From contig NZ_LGRO01000002.1 of NCBI RefSeq assembly GCF_001280565.1, positions 186,001-250,000 of the forward strand: a stretch of DNA of 64,000 nucleotides, written 5' to 3'. Positions 1-52,939 of this stretch are shown here, piece by piece; positions within the stretch are counted from its first letter, which is position 1; each line of letters begins with the position of its first letter. A model generated the notes under the pieces. The model was not told where the DNA came from. It saw nothing but the letters and a program-made list of their open reading frames with translations, and searched no databases. Source of the DNA: Sulfobacillus thermosulfidooxidans. GTDB taxonomy: Bacteria > Bacillota > Sulfobacillia > Sulfobacillales > Sulfobacillaceae. The position numbers and the translations under genes were made by a program.

Positions 1-838
1 TGTCAGTTAGCGCAGAAAATTTCAAAATATGACCCGAGAATCCTGCAGCATAGACATAGTTCTGGCCCGGGGACACAGCCAGCTGCATAAACCCGGCATT
101 GGCACCAGGAATATCTTGATAGCTGAATGAAGGATCGACTTCGGGGGTCGGAATCTGCTTTATGGCACCCGTCCGAGGATTTAACACCGTCATCACGCCG
201 GTTTTGATGTCCGCGGAAAAAATCTGGCCATGCGCCCATATGAGGTCTCCGGATTGAGGTACCGGAAATTGGCGAACAATGCGACCGGAGGGCAACGCAA
301 TTTCTGTAATCATCGAGTCCATATTGCCCCCGACAAAAGCATCATGACCATTAGGTGACACAATTACAGCGTTGCCGCCCACAGAATCTACAAAACGCTG
401 TTTATAGCCTGCGCTAAGCGAATATGCCGCAATCTGGGTAGAAGATAGCTCAAGCACCATGTGGTGATTAGGAGTCACCCGGGCAAGACGTCCCCCCGGC
501 AGAGACGGAAATGTTGCTGTGGGTTTCAAGGTCCCAGAATTCATTACCACTGTTGTACCGGCTTCTGTTGGAATGAAAATTTCATGGCGAGGAATATCAT
601 ATCCCACGAAAAAGCTGTTGCCTTCAAGGGTACTTGCCGGCGCAAAAGATGCTATGCGTGCAGTGCTTTGTCCAATACTCCAATCCACAATGGTTCCTGG
701 GCCTGGGCCCGAAGGCGGTCCCGAAAATGCACCGATCACTTGTTCCCCGTAAACGGAAGGAGGCTGTACATTAAACGAGAATCCTGTAGTCATCGAAGCC
801 GCCAAAATTAAGGCACCCATACCAGCTTTTATCATCAT
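1..838 (-). CDS. Exported beta-propeller-like protein, cut by left edge
   Basis: The first 279 codons are in the window; the 3' end lies beyond the left edge. The start is ATG at 838 (a second ATG follows at 835), preceded by AAGGAGAGG. The N-terminus is a signal peptide: a Lys followed by a hydrophobic run to about residue 22. The mature part is beta-rich with repeated motifs (SPNGHDAFVGG, SPGQNYVYAAG) like those of YncE/SMP-30/NHL-type propellers, so an extracytoplasmic binding or virginiamycin-lyase-like role is possible. No catalytic motif was identified. It begins 3 bp after the stop of the small membrane protein upstream, so the two are co-transcribed. Family assignment is by pattern only. 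Confidence 0.72.
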   Translation of the reverse strand, partial: MMIKAGMGALILAASMTTGFSFNVQPPSVYGEQVIGAFSGPPSGPGPGTIVDWSIGQSTARIASFAPASTLEGNSFFVGYDIPRHEIFIPTEAGTTVVMNSGTLKPTATFPSLPGGRLARVTPNHHMVLELSSTQIAAYSLSAGYKQRFVDSVGGNAVIVSPNGHDAFVGGNMDSMITEIALPSGRIVRQFPVPQSGDLIWAHGQIFSADIKTGVMTVLNPRTGAIKQIPTPEVDPSFSYQDIPGANAGFMQLAVSPGQNYVYAAGFSGHILKFSALTD

Positions 839-841
839 ACG

Positions 842-1183
842 TTACATCCTCTCCTTACTAAGCGTGTTTTTCGTGGAATGGCCGAGATCGGCATCGGAAT
901 CTGAGGAATTTGGAAATTTTCTCTGGCTATCTTTCCAAGTCCGTTGGGGCATCAATCCCACCGCTATCCCGATCGCTGCAAAACCCAATACAAACCAGAT
1001 CCAGTTCATGTGCAGTTCATAATAGACCAGAATAATTCCGCCAAGCCCATACAAACCGCGTGCTCCCCACGTGGCTTTGAGCCACAGATATTTGGCGCCT
1101 AGCCCATATGCCACCACCGCAAAGGCTAGTAGCCCATCATGAATAATAGGCCCCACTCCCGAACCAAAGAATTGGTACAGCAT
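842..1183 (-). CDS. Small membrane protein, three predicted TM segments
   Basis: A protein of 113 residues with hydrophobic segments at about 10-30, 40-56 and 60-77, then a charged, Ser/Asp-rich cytosolic-type tail. The ATG at 1183 has GGGAGG 6-7 bp upstream. The stop codon lies 3 bp from the start of the exported protein gene, indicating translational coupling. I do not recognise the family. A role in anchoring or exporting its partner is conceivable but not shown by the sequence. Confidence 0.7.
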   Translation of the reverse strand: MLYQFFGSGVGPIIHDGLLAFAVVAYGLGAKYLWLKATWGARGLYGLGGIILVYYELHMNWIWFVLGFAAIGIAVGLMPQRTWKDSQRKFPNSSDSDADLGHSTKNTLSKERM

Positions 1184-1261
1184 AGAACCTCCCTTTTATT
1201 CTCGTGCTTTAAATCCCCGTCCTGATCTCCCATGCCTTGCCAAAAATCCGAAAGTTTGTGT

Positions 1262-1289
1262 AAAAAGGGAGAGCCGGGGGCACTCTCCC
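1262..1289 (-). terminator. Intrinsic terminator after the Met-rich membrane protein gene
   Basis: Read on the minus strand, GGGAGAG and CTCTCCC form a 7-bp stem around a 9-nt loop, followed directly by TTTTT. It lies 15 bp past the stop of the 1304-1798 gene and 79 bp before the next start. It may end that transcript or attenuate read-through into the downstream pair. Confidence 0.75.
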
Positions 1290-1303
1290 TAGCTGGATTC
1301 CCA

Positions 1304-1798
1304 TTATTGAGCTATCTGATGACGACTTCGCCCGGCTACAACGGACGTCGAATGTAAAAGGAAGGCCGCAGCGACAATCCCAAACATCATGTGTGCGATA
1401 GCAAAAGCCCACGGCGGCATGTGAGAAGCCATTAGCGGATCAATAAGCGGTAACACCGCGAATTGGTTAATGACCCAAATCACGAGCCCGTACACCATTC
1501 CCCATACTAATCGCCCCATTCCACCGGGAATACCCAAAATCCTAAAGAGTACCGCTAATACCACACCTAAGACCATTCCCATCATCATGTGGGTCATAAG
1601 TCCCAAAATGATGACTCCAAAGGACAAATGCATTGCTGAAGCACCTAACCACACCGCCGCAATAAGTTGGACAGGTGCCCAAAACCCCATGCCACTAAAT
1701 GCCGAAACCATCATGGCCCACATGGCCATAACCACTGCCCCCACAATTCCCCCCAATATGCCGCGTCTCCATAGTTCTGTGTAATGTGAATTTGTCAT
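1304..1798 (-). CDS. Met-rich four-TM membrane protein
   Basis: About 164 residues with four hydrophobic segments. Unusually many Met and some His residues cluster in the second and third (a THMMMGM motif near residue 70) and in the fourth (SHMPPWAFAIAHMMFG). I chose ATG 1798 because AGGAGG lies 8 bp upstream; a GTG at 1807 falls inside that ribosome binding site. Met/His-rich membrane helices recall copper-handling proteins, but no metal-site family was recognised and the function is unknown. A sigma-A-like promoter containing a palindrome lies upstream (1940-1968). Confidence 0.75.
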   Translation of the reverse strand: MTNSHYTELWRRGILGGIVGAVVMAMWAMMVSAFSGMGFWAPVQLIAAVWLGASAMHLSFGVIILGLMTHMMMGMVLGVVLAVLFRILGIPGGMGRLVWGMVYGLVIWVINQFAVLPLIDPLMASHMPPWAFAIAHMMFGIVAAAFLLHSTSVVAGRSRHQIAQ

Positions 1799-1939
1799 GC
1801 TTTCCACCTCCTAGGTGGACGATATCATCCGCTGGAGAAATGTTCTGCAAGCTACCTCACATTGGCGACATATTGGAAAAACTCCTTCGGGTTATGGTCA
1901 AATCGATTGGGTTAAGACGCCTATAATAGGAGCATAATC

Positions 1940-1968
1940 ATTATAAACTACATAACGTAGTGTAATAA
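1940..1968 (-). promoter_or_regulatory. Promoter with a palindromic operator in the spacer
   Basis: On the minus strand, TTATTA (1968-1963) and a perfect TATAAT (1945-1940) are 17 bp apart. The spacer holds ACTAC-N5-GTAGT (1947-1961), which resembles the TACTA...TAGTA half-sites bound by BlaI/MecI/CopY-type winged-helix repressors. It should drive the gene starting at 1798 with a leader of about 130 nt. No such repressor is encoded in this window. Confidence 0.6.
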
Positions 1969-2041
1969 AGGAAAATTGCAACCGTTATTGGACAAAAAAG
2001 ATTTCTAAATTCTTAACAAGAAAAACAATCACCAATAGTTG

Positions 2042-2359
2042 CTAATCATACTGGACACGACTTGCGGACAAAGCTCCCCACATGGACACGGCGTACGGAA
2101 CGCAATATGTCAATCCGGTTTTCACAAACAATTCTGTTGTCCAAGGCCCCGTCCAATATGTACTGCCATGGTTGATCAGGGCGAGAATCGTGCCCACAAC
2201 CAGCGCCGTTTTTACCCCATTGCGAACCCATGGTCGATAAAGAACGGCATCCCGCCTACAGAGCCACACAACTTGGGAATCTTTGACGGTTCTGTAGCGC
2301 ACAATAGGACGGCCACACGTGTGGCAAATCATGCTGGTATTCTCTTGATCGGTTTCCAC
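2042..2359 (-). CDS. NrtS-like nitrate/nitrite transporter family protein with zinc-ribbon N-terminus
   Basis: The C-terminal part has the NrtS pattern as I recall it: VKTALVVGTILALINHG, then a second hydrophobic segment with LTYCVPY...S. NrtS proteins are small two-TM membrane proteins reported to move nitrate/nitrite in cyanobacteria. The N-terminus carries CHTC (about residues 12-15) and a later WLC, suggesting a small metal-binding knuckle. I chose GTG 2359 because GAGGTGA lies 5 bp upstream; a TTG at 2419 would add 20 residues. It lies about 75 bp downstream of the GH15 gene on the same strand. A plus-strand ORF over the same bases is a shadow. No nitrate reductase is visible nearby. Confidence 0.65.
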   Translation of the reverse strand: METDQENTSMICHTCGRPIVRYRTVKDSQVVWLCRRDAVLYRPWVRNGVKTALVVGTILALINHGSTYWTGPWTTELFVKTGLTYCVPYAVSMWGALSASRVQYD

Positions 2360-2434
2360 ATTTCTCACCTCACTCAACCTAGGACGCTTCTCCTTCCCGA
2401 CTGCTGTTTGCCAAAACAAATGAAAAACTCCATG

Positions 2435-4285
2435 CTAGGTGGCTCGCGGCCATCCCCGGCATCCTCTTAAAGGGCCATTCATCAAGGAAGATTGTGCTTG
2501 TTCTACATGCAATATCGCAGTAATGACACCCAAATGGGTAAATGCCTGCGGAAAGTTTCCCCAGAATCGTCCGGTAAGAGGGTCATATTCTTCGGCAAAG
2601 AGTCCGTGGGGTGTAATCGACAAAAATCGCTCTAACAACCTTCGTGCTTCCGCAATTTGACCAGCCAAGGCCATTGTTCCTATCAACCACGTGCTACAAA
2701 TTAAAAACGCATGCTCAGATCCAACAATGCCATCATCCATAGCACGGTAACGATATAAGAAAAGACCATCGTTATCTCCAGGCACAGCGAGATACGTCCT
2801 TATCGCCGATATCGTCGACAGCATCCGCGGGTCATTGGCAGGAACAATCCCTAACTGGGGTAACAATAGAACGCTCGCATCAAATGTGTCCTTGTTGAAG
2901 GTCTGCATAAAGCTCTGTGTATCGGAGCTGTAACCTTCGTGAAGCACCGTCTCACGAATCTCGTTGGCAATACGCTGCCAGCGGTCCAAGGGAGCCGAGA
3001 GGTGCCATTTTTGCGCTATTTTTTGGGCACGGTCAAGAGCCACCCAACACTGAGCCTTGCTATACAGAAAGTGCTGGGGCTCCCCGCGCGTTTCCCAAAT
3101 CCCTTCATCGGGCTCGGTCCAATGTAACGCCGCTTCTTCCGCGAGTTCGGTAAAAAACGGCCACAAATCGGACAAGTCCGTATCGACCTGTTGAAAGTGT
3201 TGCCATGCGGCATCCAGTACTTCCCCATACACATCAAATTGCCGCTGCGTGGCGGCCTGGTTTCCAATGCGAACAGGGTGCGCATCTTCATAGCCCTGCC
3301 ATGTAGGATGCTCCCATTCAAGGACAAGACCTCCAGGCACCACCGGGTGCAATACGAGGCGATCGACGGCGCAACAAGTTAACATCCACCGGAAAAATGC
3401 TTGCCCTTCATGGGGATGGCCTAACCATTCCAAAGCCATTAAGGTCATACTGGCATCTCTCAACCAGGAATACCGGTAATCCCAATTGCGCACCCCTCCA
3501 GGATCTTCTGGCAGTGATGTCGTAGGCGCTGCCACGATGGCTCCTGTGGGCGCATAAGTCAAGAGTTTCAGTGTCAACGCCGAACGTTCGATATGTTCCG
3601 TATAATCGCCATCATCGGGACACATTTGAATCCAATCTTGCCAAAATTTCACTGTATTGTTTAAATCGACGAGTTGTTGCTCCTGCCATCCATCACTATT
3701 CTCGTTAGGATCAAGCCCAAAGCTAAATCCGCCGGTTGTACCAGCAACCAATATTAACTCGCTATATGCATCGTTATTGATAGCATGCAAAGGAAAATCG
3801 GAAACCAAGTGCCATACGTCGGCGTGATGGGTCCATGCGAAATGAAAGGGTGAGAGTGCTGCCAATTGAGTCGTAACTAATCCATATTCGGGACGAAGTT
3901 TCACCGCTACTCGAACATGGGCGATCCCATCGATAACGCGAATACGTCGGTTTAATCGTGGCGATACCGAATCATACGACATCCAATCACGGACAATCCA
4001 TAATCCCTGGCGAGTACGGACACGTGTTTCGACCACATTGGTATGCGGCCAATACCGCCGCCATACCTCAGCAGGTTCGACAGCGGCAAGTTCAAAGGCC
4101 CCTCCATCTTTATCCAAAATCCTTCCAAACACGCTGCCGCTATCAAATTTCGGCAGGCACAACCAATCAATGCTGCCATCAGGACCAATTAAAGCACTCG
4201 TGCGCATGTCACCAAGAGCCATGTATTGGTTTATGGGCCAAAACCCGGTGCGGGGCTTTTCAAGTTTTTCATGAGTCCATGCCAT
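2435..4285 (-). CDS. Glycoside hydrolase family 15 protein (glucoamylase/trehalase-like)
   Basis: A protein of 616 residues. The N-terminal trehalase-like beta domain includes ALIGPDGSIDWLCLPKFDS near residues 31-49. The (alpha/alpha)6 barrel has the GH15 signatures RNWDYRYSWLRDA, PVRIGNQAATQ and DVYGEVLDA, and a late EHAFLICSTWL containing the usual catalytic Glu region. Family members hydrolyse alpha-glucans or trehalose. There is no signal peptide, so a cytosolic role in storage glucan or trehalose turnover is likely. The ATG at 4285 is preceded by GAAAGGA. It is transcribed away from merA across a 400-bp region holding an 18-bp inverted repeat. Confidence 0.9.
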   Translation of the reverse strand: MAWTHEKLEKPRTGFWPINQYMALGDMRTSALIGPDGSIDWLCLPKFDSGSVFGRILDKDGGAFELAAVEPAEVWRRYWPHTNVVETRVRTRQGLWIVRDWMSYDSVSPRLNRRIRVIDGIAHVRVAVKLRPEYGLVTTQLAALSPFHFAWTHHADVWHLVSDFPLHAINNDAYSELILVAGTTGGFSFGLDPNENSDGWQEQQLVDLNNTVKFWQDWIQMCPDDGDYTEHIERSALTLKLLTYAPTGAIVAAPTTSLPEDPGGVRNWDYRYSWLRDASMTLMALEWLGHPHEGQAFFRWMLTCCAVDRLVLHPVVPGGLVLEWEHPTWQGYEDAHPVRIGNQAATQRQFDVYGEVLDAAWQHFQQVDTDLSDLWPFFTELAEEAALHWTEPDEGIWETRGEPQHFLYSKAQCWVALDRAQKIAQKWHLSAPLDRWQRIANEIRETVLHEGYSSDTQSFMQTFNKDTFDASVLLLPQLGIVPANDPRMLSTISAIRTYLAVPGDNDGLFLYRYRAMDDGIVGSEHAFLICSTWLIGTMALAGQIAEARRLLERFLSITPHGLFAEEYDPLTGRFWGNFPQAFTHLGVITAILHVEQAQSSLMNGPLRGCRGWPRAT

Positions 4286-4359
4286 ACTTTCGGCGTCCTT
4301 TCATGAATCCTACTCAATGCCATACTGACAACAGGCCTGTTCAGTAGCCTTCCTACAAC

Positions 4360-4524
4360 ATATCATAAAATCACAATTTAATAATGTTATCTATCCTACA
4401 CGGAGAGATAAAATATATTTGGGTAGCCAAGAAGCAAGCAAGACAAGGGATTGGTCTGTTTCTTAACCTATTTCGCCCCTGCTAACAGTTTCCAACCCAT
4501 TTACATATTGTGATTTTATGATAT
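4360..4524. repeat. Perfect 18-bp inverted repeat in the GH15/merA divergent region
   Basis: The left arm at 4360-4377 reads ATATCATAAAATCACAAT, and its exact reverse complement is at 4507-4524. The arms are 129 bp apart in the 399-bp region between the GH15 start (4285) and merA. Each arm faces one gene, so this could be one regulator or promoter element used in both directions. I see no ORF in this region. Confidence 0.7.
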
Positions 4525-4527
4525 ATT
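4500..4527 (+). promoter_or_regulatory. Candidate promoter for merA
   Basis: TTTACA (4500-4505) and TATATT (4522-4527) are 16 bp apart, giving a leader of about 150 nt to merA. The right arm of the 18-bp inverted repeat covers the spacer and most of the -10 box, so a protein bound there would block RNA polymerase. The -35 box is one mismatch from consensus. Confidence 0.45.
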
Positions 4528-4684
4528 GGAATTAATGGTGGCTTGGTCCATTCATGGTGATGTATGGTTACGGCGCTAAAAAGGCACGTTACTTTATGAG
4601 CCTAGCGAATCTTTTGCAGAACGTAATATCGACCCATGCCATCCCTAAGGACGGCGTATTCGCACAATGAAAGGTGAGATGATG

Positions 4685-6601
4685 ATGTCCGATTCAGAAA
4701 AAAAGTTATTTGCCATGGATATTGATGGAATGACCTGCACGAGTTGTGAGCACCACGTCCAAGATGCTTTGCAATCCGTAGGTGCCACAGATGTTCATGC
4801 CGATTACAAAAAAGGGGTCGCAACGTTTATTGCGCCGTTGGATTTCCCTGTTGACAAAGCACAAGAAGCCGTGGCACAGGCTGGATACCAGCCCAAAGAT
4901 GTCAAAATTCAAGATCCCGATAATTCCTCAGAAATGGTTCCTTACCACATGGATATTCAAGGCATGACTTGTACAGATTGCGAAGTGCATATTACTAAGG
5001 CCCTAACAAAAGCCGGGGCTTCTGATGTGTCAGCCAATTTCCGACGCGGGGAGGCCACATTCTGGGCGCCTGAAACCTTATCGCTCGACACTTTGCGGCA
5101 AGCGGTATCAGAGGCCGGATACAAGCCTAAGGAAGTGCGCCCGTTATCCCGAACCGTTAATGCGCAAGGGACAGACATTAAAGGAAAAACCGGTGGTCAC
5201 CAAGACTATGATCTGATTGTGATTGGTTCGGGCAGTGCCGCCTTCGGTGCCGCCATTGAAGCACGCGGAGCCGGCTTTTCTGTCGCCATGATTGAGCGCG
5301 GCACTTTAGGCGGAACCTGTGTCAATATTGGCTGTGTCCCGTCAAAAACCCTTCTTCGCGCGAGTGATTTGCATCATTGGGCCCAAGAAAATCCCTTCCA
5401 AGGTCTTCACACTATGGCCAATCCCGCGGATCTTAAGACATTGGTCGAACAAAAAGATGAACTGGTTCAAGAACTGCGGCAGAAAAAGTATGCTGACTTG
5501 CTTCCTGAATACGAAATCGATCTCATTGAGGGCGAAGCAACATTTGTCGATGAACACCGTTTGAAAGTTGGGGATAGAATCCTCACTGCAGGACGATATA
5601 TTATTGCGACGGGTGCTAGACCCCGAATTCCTGAGATTGCCGGGCTCGATAGCGTGCCCTATTTGACGAGTACCTCCGCTCTTAATTTGACCACACGCCC
5701 TAAACATCTCCTTGTTATTGGATCGGGCTATATTGCATTGGAACTGGGTGAATTATTCCGTCACTTTGGTTCCGAGGTGACCTTGATGCAGCGCAGCCCG
5801 GCCTTGATGCCCGCTTATGACGCTGAGGTCCGGGACATCATCCAAGACGTCATGGTATCAGAAGGTATTACCGTTCTGACTGGCGTCCAATATGACCATG
5901 TTGAAAAACAAGGAAACGACATTGCCGTTCATCTAAAAATTAATGGGAAAGTTCAAACCGTAGTCGGAGACGCTTTGTTAGTCGCAGCTGGTCGGGTCCC
6001 TAATACCGAGGCGTTGAACTTACCCGCTGCCGGCGTGGAACAAGGTGCACATGGAGAACCGAAAACCGATGAGACGTTACGTACCACAAATCCTGCAATT
6101 TTTGCCGCTGGAGATGTCACCATGGGCCCGCAATTTGTCTATGTCGCGGCCTATGAAGGAAAGATCGCTGCGCAAAACGCCCTGGGGTTAAAACCCGCAG
6201 TGCAGACTCTGAAACTGGATGCCGTGCCGGCGGTCACCTTTACCCAACCTTCCATTGCTTCCGTCGGAATGACAGAAGACCAAGCTAAACAGAAGGGTCT
6301 CGCGGTAAAATCTGCTGTCCTGCCCTTAGAAGCTGTGACTAGAGCTTTAGCCAACCGCGACACGCGCGGGGTTTTTAAATTGGTGGCTGAAGAAGCTTCA
6401 GGTCGAATCGTGGGTGCACAAGTTGTCTCCGAAAATGCCGGAGATGTTATTTACGCTGCCACTTTGGCCGTTAAATTCGGTCTAACCATTGACGACCTTA
6501 CCGATTCACTGGCTCCGTACTTAACGATGGCCGAAGGTCTCAAACTCACCGCGCTAACTTTTGACAAAGACGTCAGTAAATTATCGTGCTGCGCCGGTTA
6601 A
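4685..6601 (+). CDS. merA: Mercuric reductase with two N-terminal HMA domains
   Basis: A cytosolic flavoprotein that reduces Hg(II) to Hg(0) with NADPH. Two heavy-metal-associated domains carry GMTCTSC and GMTCTDC (about residues 15-21 and 93-99). They are followed by the disulfide reductase core with the FAD motif GSGSAAFGAA, the redox pair GGTCVNIGCVPSK and the NAD motif GSGYIALELG. The C-terminal vicinal Cys pair (SCCAG) that hands Hg to the active site is intact. I chose ATG 4685 because AAGGTGA lies 7 bp upstream; ATGs at 4679 and 4682 are near, and 4667 lacks a ribosome binding site. No merT, merP or MerR-type regulator is adjacent. A terminator follows. Confidence 0.95.
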   Translation: MSDSEKKLFAMDIDGMTCTSCEHHVQDALQSVGATDVHADYKKGVATFIAPLDFPVDKAQEAVAQAGYQPKDVKIQDPDNSSEMVPYHMDIQGMTCTDCEVHITKALTKAGASDVSANFRRGEATFWAPETLSLDTLRQAVSEAGYKPKEVRPLSRTVNAQGTDIKGKTGGHQDYDLIVIGSGSAAFGAAIEARGAGFSVAMIERGTLGGTCVNIGCVPSKTLLRASDLHHWAQENPFQGLHTMANPADLKTLVEQKDELVQELRQKKYADLLPEYEIDLIEGEATFVDEHRLKVGDRILTAGRYIIATGARPRIPEIAGLDSVPYLTSTSALNLTTRPKHLLVIGSGYIALELGELFRHFGSEVTLMQRSPALMPAYDAEVRDIIQDVMVSEGITVLTGVQYDHVEKQGNDIAVHLKINGKVQTVVGDALLVAAGRVPNTEALNLPAAGVEQGAHGEPKTDETLRTTNPAIFAAGDVTMGPQFVYVAAYEGKIAAQNALGLKPAVQTLKLDAVPAVTFTQPSIASVGMTEDQAKQKGLAVKSAVLPLEAVTRALANRDTRGVFKLVAEEASGRIVGAQVVSENAGDVIYAATLAVKFGLTIDDLTDSLAPYLTMAEGLKLTALTFDKDVSKLSCCAG

Positions 6602-6607
6602 TTCACA

Positions 6608-6635
6608 AAGGGCCCAAAACTTTAGGGCCCTTTTT
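6608..6635 (+). terminator. Terminator of merA
   Basis: AAGGGCCC and GGGCCCTT form an 8-bp stem with a 9-nt loop, running into TTTTT. It begins 6 bp after the merA stop codon. Confidence 0.88.
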
Positions 6636-6692
6636 CAGTCATTTGCCGCATTAACAAGCATGTGGTTAATCGCCGATAAGGAGGCGAAAAGT

Positions 6693-7667
6693 GTGTCACG
6701 ATTCATTGCCCATGTTATCCCCTCGGATACACCTGCTACCGGGGGCAATGCCATCACCGCGGAACGAATTGTTCAAGAACTCGAACCCAAAGGTTGGAAA
6801 GGTGTCGTCACTCGTCGTCCGGCATTGCGTGGCTACGACTTTATCTTGGCCTATAATGCTTGGACGGTGGGGGTTCCCCTCATCCAATCCGGAACGAATC
6901 CTGAACGTGTCGCCGTGATTTGGACGGGAACCGATTTATGGGACGGTCTTGCCACGTTTCCCGAAATGATCTCATTATTAGAACCCGTTAAAGGTCATAT
7001 CGTCTTTACCCCAAACGCCAGGGACCGTCTCTTAAGCTTTGCACCCCACTGGGAATCCAAAGTGCATGTCATCGTCCCGGCTGTAGATCATCAACTCTTT
7101 CGACCGGATGTGATTCCACCCTCAAGTAACCTGACGTCTTTATTGATTGCTGGCGGATTACGACCAGTAAAACGAACTCACTGGGCCATAGACCTCGTTC
7201 AGGCAGTGCGCCAAAAGGGACCACAACTGGATCTCGTTATTGCCGGTCCGTCCCGGAGCGATGACGAGGATTCGCGCGTAAAAATGAAAGCGGCACCTCA
7301 TCTTTGGGTTCATTTAGTCGGAGAGATACCCCGTCAACAAATGCCTCAATACTATTGTCAAGCTGGCTGTGTTCTTAACACCTCTGCGGCCGAAGGGGTA
7401 TCCAATGCGCTGATGGAGGCCATGGCGTGTGGATCCTGCGTTATTGCCACACGTATTCCGGGTAATGCCGCCCTGATTGATCACGGAACGACAGGTTTTT
7501 TGTTTGACACCGTGGAAGAATTTGTTGACATCGTGCTATTCCTTTGGAATCATCCACAACGGCGCCAAGAAATTGGTTTCAATGCGCACCAGGTTATTCA
7601 CGAAAAGCACAATCCATGGATTGAACAATCTCAATATGATGAGCTCTTGTCCCAGTGGTTGTCCTAA
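6693..7667 (+). CDS. GT4-type glycosyltransferase, SenB-like
   Basis: About 324 residues with the GT-B fold of family GT4. The N-terminal domain has the WTGTDLW motif. The C-terminal nucleotide-sugar domain has LLIAGGLRPVKR, then AEGVSNALMEAMACG, the E-x7-E-like element, and TRIPGN. The TGTDL and IPGN motifs recall SenB, the selenosugar synthase of selenoneine synthesis, but no senA or senC is present, so the acceptor is unknown. I chose GTG 6693 because AAGGAGG lies 8 bp upstream; in-frame codons back to 6561 overlap merA and its terminator. It lies between merA and an ArsR regulator on the same strand. Confidence 0.75.
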   Translation: MSRFIAHVIPSDTPATGGNAITAERIVQELEPKGWKGVVTRRPALRGYDFILAYNAWTVGVPLIQSGTNPERVAVIWTGTDLWDGLATFPEMISLLEPVKGHIVFTPNARDRLLSFAPHWESKVHVIVPAVDHQLFRPDVIPPSSNLTSLLIAGGLRPVKRTHWAIDLVQAVRQKGPQLDLVIAGPSRSDDEDSRVKMKAAPHLWVHLVGEIPRQQMPQYYCQAGCVLNTSAAEGVSNALMEAMACGSCVIATRIPGNAALIDHGTTGFLFDTVEEFVDIVLFLWNHPQRRQEIGFNAHQVIHEKHNPWIEQSQYDELLSQWLS

Positions 7668-7729
7668 CCCATGAAATCCAGTACCTTCCGTAAGAATACG
7701 CAAGCATAAACAGAGAAAGGAAGAAATGG

Positions 7730-8104
7730 ATGTTTTTCAGCCTGTCTAATTCGCAGCAAGAAGACCTGCTGGCAGCATTTTGGCAAGCCCTGAGTAGCCC
7801 CATTCGTCTGCGTGTTTTGGACATTTTGCGCACACAAGGCCCGTTAAATGTCAGCCAGCTCGTGCAAAAATTGGAGATGGGTCAAGGACACTTATCAAAC
7901 CATCTGACGTGTCTCAAGAGTTGCGGCTTAGTACGGGCTGAAGCTCAAGGCCGTTATGTCTTTTATTCTTTAAGCGATGAACGGGTCAGTATCTTGTTAG
8001 ATGTCAGCCGGGACATATTGCATGATCATCTGCTAGGTATTGCCTCCTGCCATTTCGTTAAGTCTTCTGAGCCCCAAGACGGGGATAATGGGGGCACACC
8101 CTAG
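7730..8104 (+). CDS. ArsR/SmtB-family metal-sensing repressor, CmtR-like
   Basis: A winged-helix repressor of 124 residues. It has the ArsR signature SSPIRLRVLDIL and a recognition helix GQGHLSNHLTCLKSCGLV. Cys61 and Cys65 in that helix, with a C-terminal Cys107, match the Cys layout of CmtR, which senses Cd/Pb, rather than the ELCVCDL motif of CadC/SmtB. Hg, Cd or Pb are therefore plausible inducers. ATG 7730 is read with AAAGGA about 9 bp upstream; an ATG at 7726 is out of frame and ends after seven codons. It probably controls the neighbouring mer/glycosyltransferase genes. Confidence 0.88.
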   Translation: MFFSLSNSQQEDLLAAFWQALSSPIRLRVLDILRTQGPLNVSQLVQKLEMGQGHLSNHLTCLKSCGLVRAEAQGRYVFYSLSDERVSILLDVSRDILHDHLLGIASCHFVKSSEPQDGDNGGTP

Positions 8105-8186
8105 TTGCCAAATTTTGTACCAGCGCCATGTCCTATGCGAAACCGAAACATGGGAATTAAAGTCATGCGCCCATAGGAATAAAGTG

Positions 8187-8202
8187 GAACTCTCCAGAGT
8201 TC
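8187..8202. terminator. Weak hairpin between convergent arsR-like and lysR-like genes
   Basis: GAACTC and GAGTTC pair around a 4-nt loop, with TTT after it on the plus strand and a T-rich stretch a few bases later on the minus strand. The position between convergent genes fits a shared terminator, but the stem is short. Confidence 0.4.
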
Positions 8203-8203
8203 T

Positions 8204-9100
8204 TTAACCCCGCGGAAATCTTCGGGCTTGGGTAATAAAGGTCTGGGCAATCGCACGCACCGCACTCGTCATGGTTTCGAGAGGCCGATAGATTAGAGCG
8301 AGCTGTCTAAAGGCTGCCGGATTTAAATGCCGCACCACAATTTGTCCGACGTCTGCATAGACTCTAGCGGCTTGATTGGGGACAATCGAAATCCCTAATC
8401 CAGCCGCAACAAACCCAATTACAGTGGCTATGCTCGTCGCTTGAAAAATTAGGCGAGGTTGAATGCCGTTTTCGTGGAACAACGCTAATACATGACGTTG
8501 AAGTCCTGTCCCCACATCAAGTCCAATAAAAGGTAATCCATCAAGCTGCTTAATGGTTATCGCTTCTTCCTGAACGGAAGATGAGGGATTATCGATCAAC
8601 ACCAGCTCTTCTCGCCATAATGGGGCCACTTGCAAGTCCGTGTACATCAGAGGCAATGTGACCACCGCCAGATCTAAATCCCCATGGCGCACTTTTTCCA
8701 CTAAATCCATAGACCGTCCTTCTGTAACCATCAGATGCACATCAGGATAGCGCGTCATCAAACTGCGATACACAAATGGAAAGTGTGCCGCAGACGCCGT
8801 TTGAATGATGCCTAGACGCACTTCTCCATGAACCGTACGAATGTCGACTAAATCATCCCCTATCGACGCCGTTTGCTGCAGAATAACCCGGGCTCTATCC
8901 ACCACGATCTGCCCCTCTGGACGGACGGTAATTCCCCGGGCACTCCGGTCAACAAGACGGTAGCCCAACAAATCTTCCAAAAGCTTTAACTGATGGGTGA
9001 CGGTCGGCTGCGTCACATCTAGCGCAACGGCTGCCGCGGAAATCGAACCGTGATCAGCTACAGCCACTAAACATGCTAATTGTTTTAGAGTAATTTCCAT
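8204..9100 (-). CDS. LysR-family transcriptional regulator
   Basis: A LysR-type regulator of 298 residues. The N-terminal winged helix (residues 1-60) has SISAAAVALDVTQPTVTHQLKLLE. The C-terminal co-inducer domain starts near residue 90 with VRLGIIQT. The ATG at 9100 fits the family length of about 300. It is divergent from a DHA2 drug exporter whose start is 133 bp away, the classical layout for a LysR protein that activates its neighbour. The effector cannot be told from sequence. Confidence 0.92.
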   Translation of the reverse strand: MEITLKQLACLVAVADHGSISAAAVALDVTQPTVTHQLKLLEDLLGYRLVDRSARGITVRPEGQIVVDRARVILQQTASIGDDLVDIRTVHGEVRLGIIQTASAAHFPFVYRSLMTRYPDVHLMVTEGRSMDLVEKVRHGDLDLAVVTLPLMYTDLQVAPLWREELVLIDNPSSSVQEEAITIKQLDGLPFIGLDVGTGLQRHVLALFHENGIQPRLIFQATSIATVIGFVAAGLGISIVPNQAARVYADVGQIVVRHLNPAAFRQLALIYRPLETMTSAVRAIAQTFITQARRFPRG

Positions 9101-9151
9101 CGGTATGTCCCATAAATTATTTTTATACCTATCTATACAGAAAAATGCCTT

Positions 9152-9172
9152 GGACGTCTAGATGGGGACGTC
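9152..9172. promoter_or_regulatory. Paired GGACGTC repeats in the LysR/exporter intergenic region
   Basis: GGACGTC occurs at 9152-9158 and 9166-9172, with starts 14 bp apart. Each contains the palindrome GACGTC. They lie between the divergent LysR gene and the exporter gene and could be operator half-sites. Two copies only, so the evidence is limited. Confidence 0.35.
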
Positions 9173-9233
9173 TTTAATTAATGCTATCGAGACATAACAC
9201 GTTCGGTAAATTTGCAAAATGGGAAGTGAGACA

Positions 9234-10703
9234 ATGACAACAGGCGCCGCTCTCCCTGCCCACTACAAATGGTGGGCCCTGTCTGCCACAAGCCTTGGCA
9301 TGTTTATGGCCATGTTAAATGGCACGACGCTTCTGGTCGCGTTACCAACCCTTATCCGCGTGCTTCATATGTCGTCATTATTGGCCATTTGGGTTATGTT
9401 GGCTTATATGGTAACACAGACCGTATTAGTTCTTACCGTCGGCCGGTTTTCGGATATGTACGGACGTAAACGGTGGTATGTGGCGGGATTTGCATTATTT
9501 ACGGTCGCCAGTTTGGCCGCAGGCTTTTCACCTAATGGGCAAACATTGTTGATAATCCGTGCCCTCCAAGCGGTGGGTGGATCACTGGTCATGGGCAATT
9601 CCACAGCGATTGTCGCAGACGCCTTTCCCCGCCAACAACTGGGGCTGGCACTGGGCATTAACAGCATTGTAATTGCGCTTGGCCAAATAGCCGGGCCTGT
9701 GTTAGGGGGTTTACTGGTAACATGGTTCAGTTGGCACTGGGTATTTTGGTTCAATGTACCCATTGGAGTTATCGGTACGCTCTGGGCAGCTTACCAACTC
9801 CATGATCTAACGCCTGCTGCTCGCCATCAGCGCATTGACTATTGGGGGAACTTCACCTACATGCTAAGCTTGTTGGGAATTTTAATTGCGATTACTTGGG
9901 GTGGGCTCAGAGGCTGGCAATCCCCGGTGGTCTATACCGGACTGGCAACGGCCGGGGTAGGCTTCTACGTCTTTTTACGGTGGGAAAAGGTGGTGACAGA
10001 CCCCTTATTAAAACTCGGCTTGTTTCACATCCGGGCTTTTGCTATGGGTAACTTGTCAAACTTTTTTATCGCCATGGGACGCGGTGCTATCGTGTTGCTC
10101 TTTATCTTTTACTTCCAAGGCACACGGGGGGAAAACGCGCTACAAGCAGGTATCTCAGTCATTCCTATGGCGATCGCCATGGGATTGACTGCACCGGTAT
10201 CGGGATGGTTATCAGACCGCATGGGAGCCCGGGTACTCGCCACCTTAGGCGCGGTGATTATGGCTATCAGCCTTATGGGTTTTGCTCTGACCATTTCCTT
10301 ATCCACACCCTATGTGATTATCGCTTTGTGGCTCACGATCGCTGGAGTGGGTAATGGCCTGTTTAATTCGCCGAATACAAGCGCCATCATGGGCACGGTA
10401 GCGCCGGAAGAGCGAGGGATTGCCGCGGGCACACGCACCATGTTACTGAACACAGGCAATGTCTTTTCGGTCGGAATGGTGCTAGCATTGGTCGCAGCAA
10501 CGGTTCCCCCGTCCATTATGTTAGCCATTTTCGCGGGCCAACCCACGGCTGTCAATACCCAAGGACTCGTTCACTTTGTGCACGGCTTAAACTGGGCCTT
10601 TGTGTTTATGGCCTTCATGGCTCTCATATCAGCATTCCTTTCGTTCCTGCGCGGTCAACACGCGCCGGTCTTAGTCGAACAATCGCAGAGCGCAGTTCGC
10701 TAA
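9234..10703 (+). CDS. MFS multidrug exporter, DHA2 (14-TM) family
   Basis: About 489 residues in 14 hydrophobic segments. Motif A appears as GRFSDMYGRKR after TM2. The TM5 antiporter motif C region is GQIAGPVLGGLLVTW, typical of proton-coupled drug exporters of the EmrB/QacA group. I chose ATG 9234 because GGAAGTGAG lies just upstream; the ATG at 9219 has no ribosome binding site. It is likely controlled by the divergent LysR protein. The substrate is unknown. Confidence 0.9.
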   Translation: MTTGAALPAHYKWWALSATSLGMFMAMLNGTTLLVALPTLIRVLHMSSLLAIWVMLAYMVTQTVLVLTVGRFSDMYGRKRWYVAGFALFTVASLAAGFSPNGQTLLIIRALQAVGGSLVMGNSTAIVADAFPRQQLGLALGINSIVIALGQIAGPVLGGLLVTWFSWHWVFWFNVPIGVIGTLWAAYQLHDLTPAARHQRIDYWGNFTYMLSLLGILIAITWGGLRGWQSPVVYTGLATAGVGFYVFLRWEKVVTDPLLKLGLFHIRAFAMGNLSNFFIAMGRGAIVLLFIFYFQGTRGENALQAGISVIPMAIAMGLTAPVSGWLSDRMGARVLATLGAVIMAISLMGFALTISLSTPYVIIALWLTIAGVGNGLFNSPNTSAIMGTVAPEERGIAAGTRTMLLNTGNVFSVGMVLALVAATVPPSIMLAIFAGQPTAVNTQGLVHFVHGLNWAFVFMAFMALISAFLSFLRGQHAPVLVEQSQSAVR

Positions 10704-47121: not shown

Positions 47122-47168
47122 GAAGGAAGAAAAAAAGAAAGATAAGGAAGAAAGGAAGAAAGAAAGGA
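47122..47168 (+). repeat. 47-nt polypurine tract in a 330-bp gap
   Basis: Between the CofE-like start and the aldolase terminator, the plus strand is all A/G from 47122 to 47168 except T47143 (GAAGG/AAAGGAAG units). ORFs there on both strands are low-complexity artefacts. The rest of the 46890-47219 gap contains nothing recognisable. Confidence 0.6.
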
Positions 47169-48164: not shown

Positions 48165-48443
48165 AATCGCTCCTTCATCCCTTTCCATTCGGCGAGATAC
48201 ATGCCTATTCTTCCCTAATCATACCAAAGCTGGTTGCTAAAGAGAATGTCACCGAAGGGAAGTTGCAGCCAACTCACGGCGCTTGTTGGGAAATTAACAT
48301 TTTTCCGGTAAGATAAAAACGGTCGTAGTGCCATAGGCGTATGATACAAGCCTCATCACAAAAACCGTCTACACAATCAACACAAACATCATGAGAACAC
48401 CAACAGATGCATCACGTCAATACACGCACAAGGAGGTTTTCAT

Positions 48444-50202
48444 ACGGATCAGCCACTTTCACATCTTCGCTATCAGATTTCCATGCCTGAACCACAAACC
48501 CACCGGTTTCACGTGCGAATTGAATGGACAGGAACAATACCTCAAAACATGACATGGGCTTTACCAGTTTGGACACCCGGGTCTTATCTCATCCGGGAAT
48601 TTTCTCGTCATATTGACCGCATTCACGCCTCCTCGGAGTCTGCCGAACTAGCCGTGCGTAAACTCGATAAGGCCACTTGGATCCACTTGGATCTTGGAGG
48701 ATCTAGACAATATTTCCACACTGATTTTGGAATATGACGTATTTGCATATGAACTTTCTGTGCGCACCAGCTATTTAGATAGCCAACGAGGATATTTCAA
48801 CGGGGCGAATGTCTTCTTGTACCCCGACACAGACATTGCCTATAACATAGAATTAGAGGTTATTCCCTATTCCCATTGGGATGTCGCCACGGCACTCACC
48901 CGTTTGAATAAGCCGGGATATCATTATGCTGTGCCCGATTATGACACTTTAGTAGACAGCCCGGTAGAATGTGGGGTGTTTCAACGGCGCTCTTTTGTTG
49001 TCGACAATGTAGAGCATGAACTGATTTTCACGGGATTTGATGATATTGACCTCAGTGATTTGCTCCGAGATCTTCCCCCCATTATTCAGTCGGCCAAAGA
49101 CATTTTTGGCACACCACTACCCTATAATCGCTATGTTTTTCTCGTTTACGGGAGTATAGAGAGCGGCGGAGGATTGGAACACAAAAATTCTGCCAGTATC
49201 ATTTTCGATCGCTTCATGCTCCATGACCCGAGCAAGTATCCACGCGTCTTAGCCTTATTTGCCCATGAATATTTTCATTTGTGGAATGTTAAGCGTCTTC
49301 ACCCAACAAACCTCGGGCCTTTTGATTATCAGCACGAAGTTTACACGCCCTTATTGTGGGTGCTAGAAGGATGGACTGACTATTACGCCTGGATTTTATT
49401 AGTTCGGTCCGGAGTCGTTGACGTCTTTACCGTTTTGGATCACTTTGCTGAGGCACTTCGCCTCCTCGATCTGGTACCAGGTCGCCATGTTCAAAGCCTG
49501 GTTGAGGCCTCTCAAGATACCTGGATAAAATTTTACCGGCCTGAGGGTAACACCCCCAATATCACCATCAGCTACTATCATAAAGGCGCTCTGGTGGCGT
49601 TGGCCTTGGATCTGGCCTTGCGCAAAGCCACAGGTGGCCGAGATAGTTTAGATACCGTACTCCGTTTCTTATGGATGAGTTATGGCGACCAAGGCTATCC
49701 CGAAACGGCCGTTGATGATGCTCTGGTTCGAGTGGGGGGACCTTTAATGCGCCAACGATTACAGCAGTGGGTCTATGGCACCGACGACATTCCCGCCGAA
49801 CTTTTCAATGTGGTCGGTCTTAAACTGCTCAAAGAATTTAAAGATGCCCATCAAAAAGTGCCCTACACGGGCATTATCACTGAAAAATCCGGCACCGACA
49901 CCGTAATCATTAAGCATGTACTCAAAGACAGCCCGGCGGAAAAGGCGGGATTAGCACCGGGTGATGAATGGATTGCATTAAATGGATATCGCGTACGTCA
50001 TGACAATCTTCCAGGACGCCTCGCCCAATATGCAGCAAACACGAGCATCCAAGTGACCGTATTTCGCCAACACCAACTACAAACCTATTCCTTAACGCTC
50101 GGCTCACCCCGTCCGGATGCCTGGCGTTTCATCACGGACCCCAACGCTCCCGAAGAGGCTCGCCAGCAATTCAGCCAGTGGCTGGGAGCCCCTTATCCCT
50201 AA
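48444..50202 (+). pseudogene. M61-family glycyl aminopeptidase, frameshifted and lacking a normal start
   Basis: Two frames together encode one M61 peptidase. The first (from 48444, ending TGA near 48737) has the N-terminal domain PVWTPGSYLIREFSRHIDRI. The second (open from 48694) has VFAYELSVRTSYLD, the zinc site HEYFHLWNVKRLHP, and a PDZ domain (about DSPAEKAGLAPGD). The break is a 10-bp tandem duplication at 48673-48692; removing one copy rejoins the frames exactly. AAGGAGG at 48431-48437 stands 7 bp before ACG, where homologues start, and the frame downstream reads LSHLRYQISMPEPQTH, typical of M61 N-termini. An ATG at 48483 could start a truncated product. The later frame is intact for about 500 codons, so decay is recent or reversible. 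Confidence 0.85.
48673..48692 (+). repeat. 10-bp tandem duplication breaking the M61 gene
   Basis: CCACTTGGAT occurs twice in direct tandem (48673-48682 and 48683-48692). Since 10 is not a multiple of three, it shifts the reading frame by one base. With one unit, the codons read straight from KLDKATWI to LEDLDN. Confidence 0.95.
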
Positions 50203-52907: not shown

Positions 52908-52939
52908 CCTTAATCCTCAATCCTCCCTCAATCCTCCAT
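52905..52939 (-). repeat. Tandem GAGGATTGAGG repeats before the adenosyltransferase start
   Basis: Read on the minus strand, GAGGATTGAGG occurs twice in tandem, then GATTAAGG and the ATG. Each copy includes a ribosome-binding-like GAGG. It may be a simple repeat that varies translation efficiency, but two units only. Confidence 0.45.

Follow-up and report, generated by a model that had tools for sequence, protein, structure and literature searches.

The interrupted M61 gene

The window, that is, the whole 64,000-nucleotide stretch that was analysed (G000:C2:186001-250000), lies within a 3-contig genome of 3.83 Mb and contains an M61 metallopeptidase gene (48444-50202) that is put out of frame by a short duplication. 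The 5′ part of the gene, in its original frame (48444-48737, + strand), has a probable ACG start at 48444 and an ATG at 48483. This upstream frame reads ...RKLDKATWIHLDLGGSRQYFHTDFGI, runs through both copies of the repeat and ends at a premature TGA at 48737. The downstream frame stays open over 48652-50202, and the rest of the gene in this shifted frame (48694-50202, + strand) encodes the end of the N-terminal domain, the catalytic domain and a PDZ domain.

Analysis of the two translations assigned both to peptidase family M61, with PF17899, PF05299 and PF13180 scoring above their cut-offs. The 5′ piece matches Peptidase_M61_N over profile positions 6-72 (E = 1.4e-17), while the 3′ piece takes up the same profile at positions 70-167 (E = 5e-23), so that the two pieces of the protein join at the repeat. 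The 3′ piece further matches Peptidase_M61 (E = 1.9e-42) and PDZ_2 (E = 1.3e-6), and it carries the HEYFH (HEXXH) motif with a downstream Glu. The order of the M61 N-terminal domain, HEXXH catalytic domain and PDZ domain is that of the family (PF05299 / PF17899), from which this gene differs in being split by a frameshift. Its product is predicted to be a glycyl-aminopeptidase-type M61 metallopeptidase, and the closest solved relative is 4fgm, an aminopeptidase N family protein. An intact M61 paralogue, 42% identical and with a 615-codon open frame, is present elsewhere in the genome (C1:2720379-2721926).

A reading of the sequence on its own (hereafter the sequence-only reading) had proposed that dropping one copy of the repeat joins KLDKATWI-LEDLDN into an M61 protein, and this junction agrees with the KLDKATWVLEDLGS of a relative. 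Its claim that the remainder of the gene stays open also holds, since the downstream frame continues to 50202 and no second lesion was found in the gene beyond the duplication.

A 10-bp tandem duplication derived in G000

The duplication consists of CCACTTGGAT present twice in perfect direct tandem at 48673-48692 (+ strand), as had been described from the sequence. Tandem Repeats Finder confirmed it at 48673-48693, with a period of 10, 2.1 copies and a 100% match. The one extra copy adds 10 nt and shifts the frame. It is located at position 234,673 of 607,459 in the contig, in unique sequence and distant from the contig ends.

Orthologues could be aligned at this site in three related genomes, G006, G002 and G001 (n = 3), at a DNA identity of 89% and lower. 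The G006 orthologue, which is 89% identical, is exactly 10 nt shorter at the duplication point, and those of G002 and G001 also lack the 10 nt, each of the three having one diverged copy. The frame is open over 583 codons in G006 and 580 codons in G001, and up to the contig end in G002. The lesion is thus missing from all three orthologues in the alignment that the sequence-only reading had proposed as a check, and the single diverged copy in an open frame indicates that the second copy is derived in G000. In a search with at most two mismatches allowed, none of the 33 other family genomes had the doubled sequence at the M61 locus. The sole other match among the 34 family genomes lies in G003, on a different contig and with two mismatches. 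A repeat-prone site common to the relatives is ruled out by the single diverged copies and by this search.

Perfect tandem repeats of at least 10 bp were counted at 3 per 264 kb of G000, versus 0-1 in simulated order-1 Markov sequences; such repeats are above chance expectation in this genome. Both G000 and G006 contain further perfect tandem repeats in the 9-12 bp range, and because G006 has several of its own that reach 10 bp or more, small duplications belong to the background of the lineage.

Other repeats were observed in the window and in G006. A cobalamin adenosyltransferase-like gene is preceded, immediately ahead of its ATG, by an 11-bp tandem repeat (GAGGATTGAGG, minus strand; 52915-52937), through which a Shine-Dalgarno-like stretch is present twice; the doubling in G006 is similar but imperfect. 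An imperfect purine-rich repeat of AAGA type, about 46 bp long (47123-47168), separates two minus-strand genes. A G006 gene near C1:511798 (L131) contains, towards its 3′ end, a perfect tandem duplication of 23 bp, so that its length differs from that in G000 by 23 nt near the frame end.

Age of the lesion and selection on the gene

To place the frameshift among others, G000 was compared with 142 genes of G006, covering about 150 kb, and a G000 frameshift deep within a gene turned up in the M61 gene alone. The other 12 genes with reported out-of-frame stretches mostly had indels near automatically chosen starts (most within about 100 nt) or small compensated shifts. One deep frameshift in about 150 kb indicates that the assembly is not generally error-prone, and the survey rules out a generally frameshift-rich assembly.

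Downstream of the duplication, dN/dS between G000 and G006 is 0.034/0.378 = 0.09, which falls inside the range of 0.01-0.125 obtained for eight neighbouring genes. Parsimony assignment of the changes to branches, using G002 and G001, gave 10 nonsynonymous and 29 synonymous changes for G000 versus 16 and 44 for G006, counts too small to reveal a lesion that had been present during a modest part of the branch. Neither dN/dS nor the branch counts, which are similar to those of the sister branch, gave any sign that purifying selection had relaxed in the remainder of the gene. The lack of secondary lesions in a gene whose selection has not yet relaxed is the pattern of a recent pseudogene and supports the recent origin suggested by the sequence-only reading; the further disabling mutations that it took as the mark of a fixed pseudogene were not found in the M61 gene. 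An old pseudogene is ruled out by the normal dN/dS and the single lesion. Together, the absence of a second lesion and the normal N/S ratio imply either that normal selection acted on the gene up to a very recent time, or that it still does and the assembly is wrong.

A candidate ACG start

Upstream of the duplication, an AGGAGG Shine-Dalgarno sequence at 48431 and an in-frame ACG at 48444 are separated by a spacer of exactly 7 nt (48431-48446, + strand). The ATG at 48483 is without a Shine-Dalgarno sequence and lies within the conserved LRYQISM strand, and no in-frame ATG, GTG or TTG occurs between the upstream stop and this ATG. The start of the gene is thus probably located upstream of the ATG, near 48444.

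A pattern search found AGGAGG-N7-ACG in the four Sulfobacillus-group genomes G000, G006, G002 and G001, and in none (0/4) of the other genus-set genomes. G001 carries a two-codon deletion a few codons past the ACG that keeps the frame and shows the divergence of this genome. This conservation suggests an ACG start for the M61 gene. In the orthologues of G007 and G005, an ATG stands behind a Shine-Dalgarno sequence in the start region. In sampled parts of G000 and G006, the codons behind AGGAGG are mainly ATG and GTG. Two other cases of ACG after AGGAGG were found in G006; one looks like a chance match within a gene and the other like an ACG directly before an ATG. The orthologous M61 gene of G006 also has, directly 5′ of its AGGAGG, an array of about 3.4 copies of the 11-bp unit ACAAACGCATC (C1, L083/L096); G000 lacks such an array there.

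We tentatively propose, as a possibility somewhat short of an even chance, that, irrespective of the duplication, translation of the M61 gene and of its orthologues in three related species begins at this conserved non-canonical ACG, with a 7-nt spacer behind a strong AGGAGG; such a start may limit expression of the peptidase to a low level or to certain conditions. A literature search for natural bacterial ACG starts found nothing. If true, this would be a case of a natural ACG initiator that several species have retained, well suited to testing how a strong Shine-Dalgarno sequence makes up for a start codon that is very weak, and automatic annotation would set the start about 13 codons too late. 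The ACG start may matter more than the frameshift.

Origin and consequence of the frameshift

Taken with the relatives and the selection analysis, the duplication is probably a very recent 10-bp slippage event in an otherwise intact, selected M61 gene, giving a null allele and not an evolved switch. A single replication-slippage event would have duplicated the 10 bp very recently, in this strain or culture, the duplication being presumed present in the living strain. Past the first copy, the ribosome would no longer be in the original frame and would stop at 48737; the protein would be cut off after about 80 residues, as a fragment of about 84-97 residues without the catalytic domain, so that the allele is expected to be null. 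The intact paralogue may lower the cost of this loss. Loss of one copy would bring the frame back, as for any tandem duplication.

The main alternative is an assembly or consensus error, the cell having one copy and an intact gene. The normal purifying selection and the absence of any other lesion are as expected of an intact gene, and the duplication is read from the assembled sequence of a 3-contig genome. Assembly errors are usually homopolymer indels, whereas a perfect 10-bp duplication in unique sequence, distant from contig ends, is atypical of them. Perfect repeats of 9-12 bp are moreover found elsewhere in G000 and in G006, and the mid-gene frameshift is just one in about 150 kb of compared genes. 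That few other frameshifts were found, and that the lesion is of this type, speaks for a real mutation, and we consider an error unlikely, although it keeps appreciable weight.

Phase variation, in which the copy number of the tract would change often and reversibly and turn the peptidase on and off, was suggested by the sequence-only reading, which took the repeat as its signature. The 10-bp unit is not a multiple of three, is located early in the gene, and belongs to a tandem repeat able to lose a copy through slippage. Any tandem duplication can collapse to one copy, which is a property of the mutation and no evidence of an evolved switch. The tract has two units only, in place of the multi-unit iterated tract of variable copy number in relatives that characterizes a contingency locus. 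G006, G002 and G001 are without a repeat tract at the site, no copy-number variation was seen at the M61 locus in the 33 other family genomes searched, and a surface-antigen or similar role of the M61 protein is not evident. Mutation rates of phase-variable simple repeats exceed the basal rate by a factor of 100-10,000, and to count as phase-variable a locus must switch faster than a threshold rate in both directions (PMC11868660). Phase variation is thus very improbable here, and the M61 allele should not be taken for a phase-variable gene.

Least probable of all is continued production of the enzyme from the two-copy allele, by recoding or internal initiation: the two frames do overlap (48655-48737) and the downstream frame offers a TTG at 48694, but the overlap contains no canonical X XXY YYZ slippery heptamer, which rules out -1 recoding, the relatives need no recoding signal, which would have had to arise together with the duplication, and internal initiation would drop about half of the N-terminal domain.

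The frameshift itself is of little weight; its use is to caution readers of this assembly that the M61 allele is either null or incorrect.

Comparison with known systems

A literature search on M61 in Sulfobacillus found nothing. Other bacteria offer comparable null alleles, sporadic and at strain level: one study describes S. aureus mupA silenced by a frameshift (PMC13164555), and a comparison of M. tuberculosis Erdman assemblies describes a 4-bp insertion in lpdA (PMC12817950). The mupA and lpdA alleles resemble the M61 allele in that a small insertion or frameshift affects an otherwise intact gene, and in that a real allele is hard to separate from an assembly error without reads. They differ from it in that the M61 lesion duplicates 10 bp exactly and belongs to an environmental acidophile whose species is represented by a single genome. 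In the S. aureus agr system, reversible ‘phase variant’ mutations arise through duplication-plus-inversion and poly(A) changes (PMC6686034). Like these, the M61 allele would be a null allele restorable by slippage or recombination; reversion was measured in agr, whereas the relatives of the M61 gene are without the tract and switching is not indicated.
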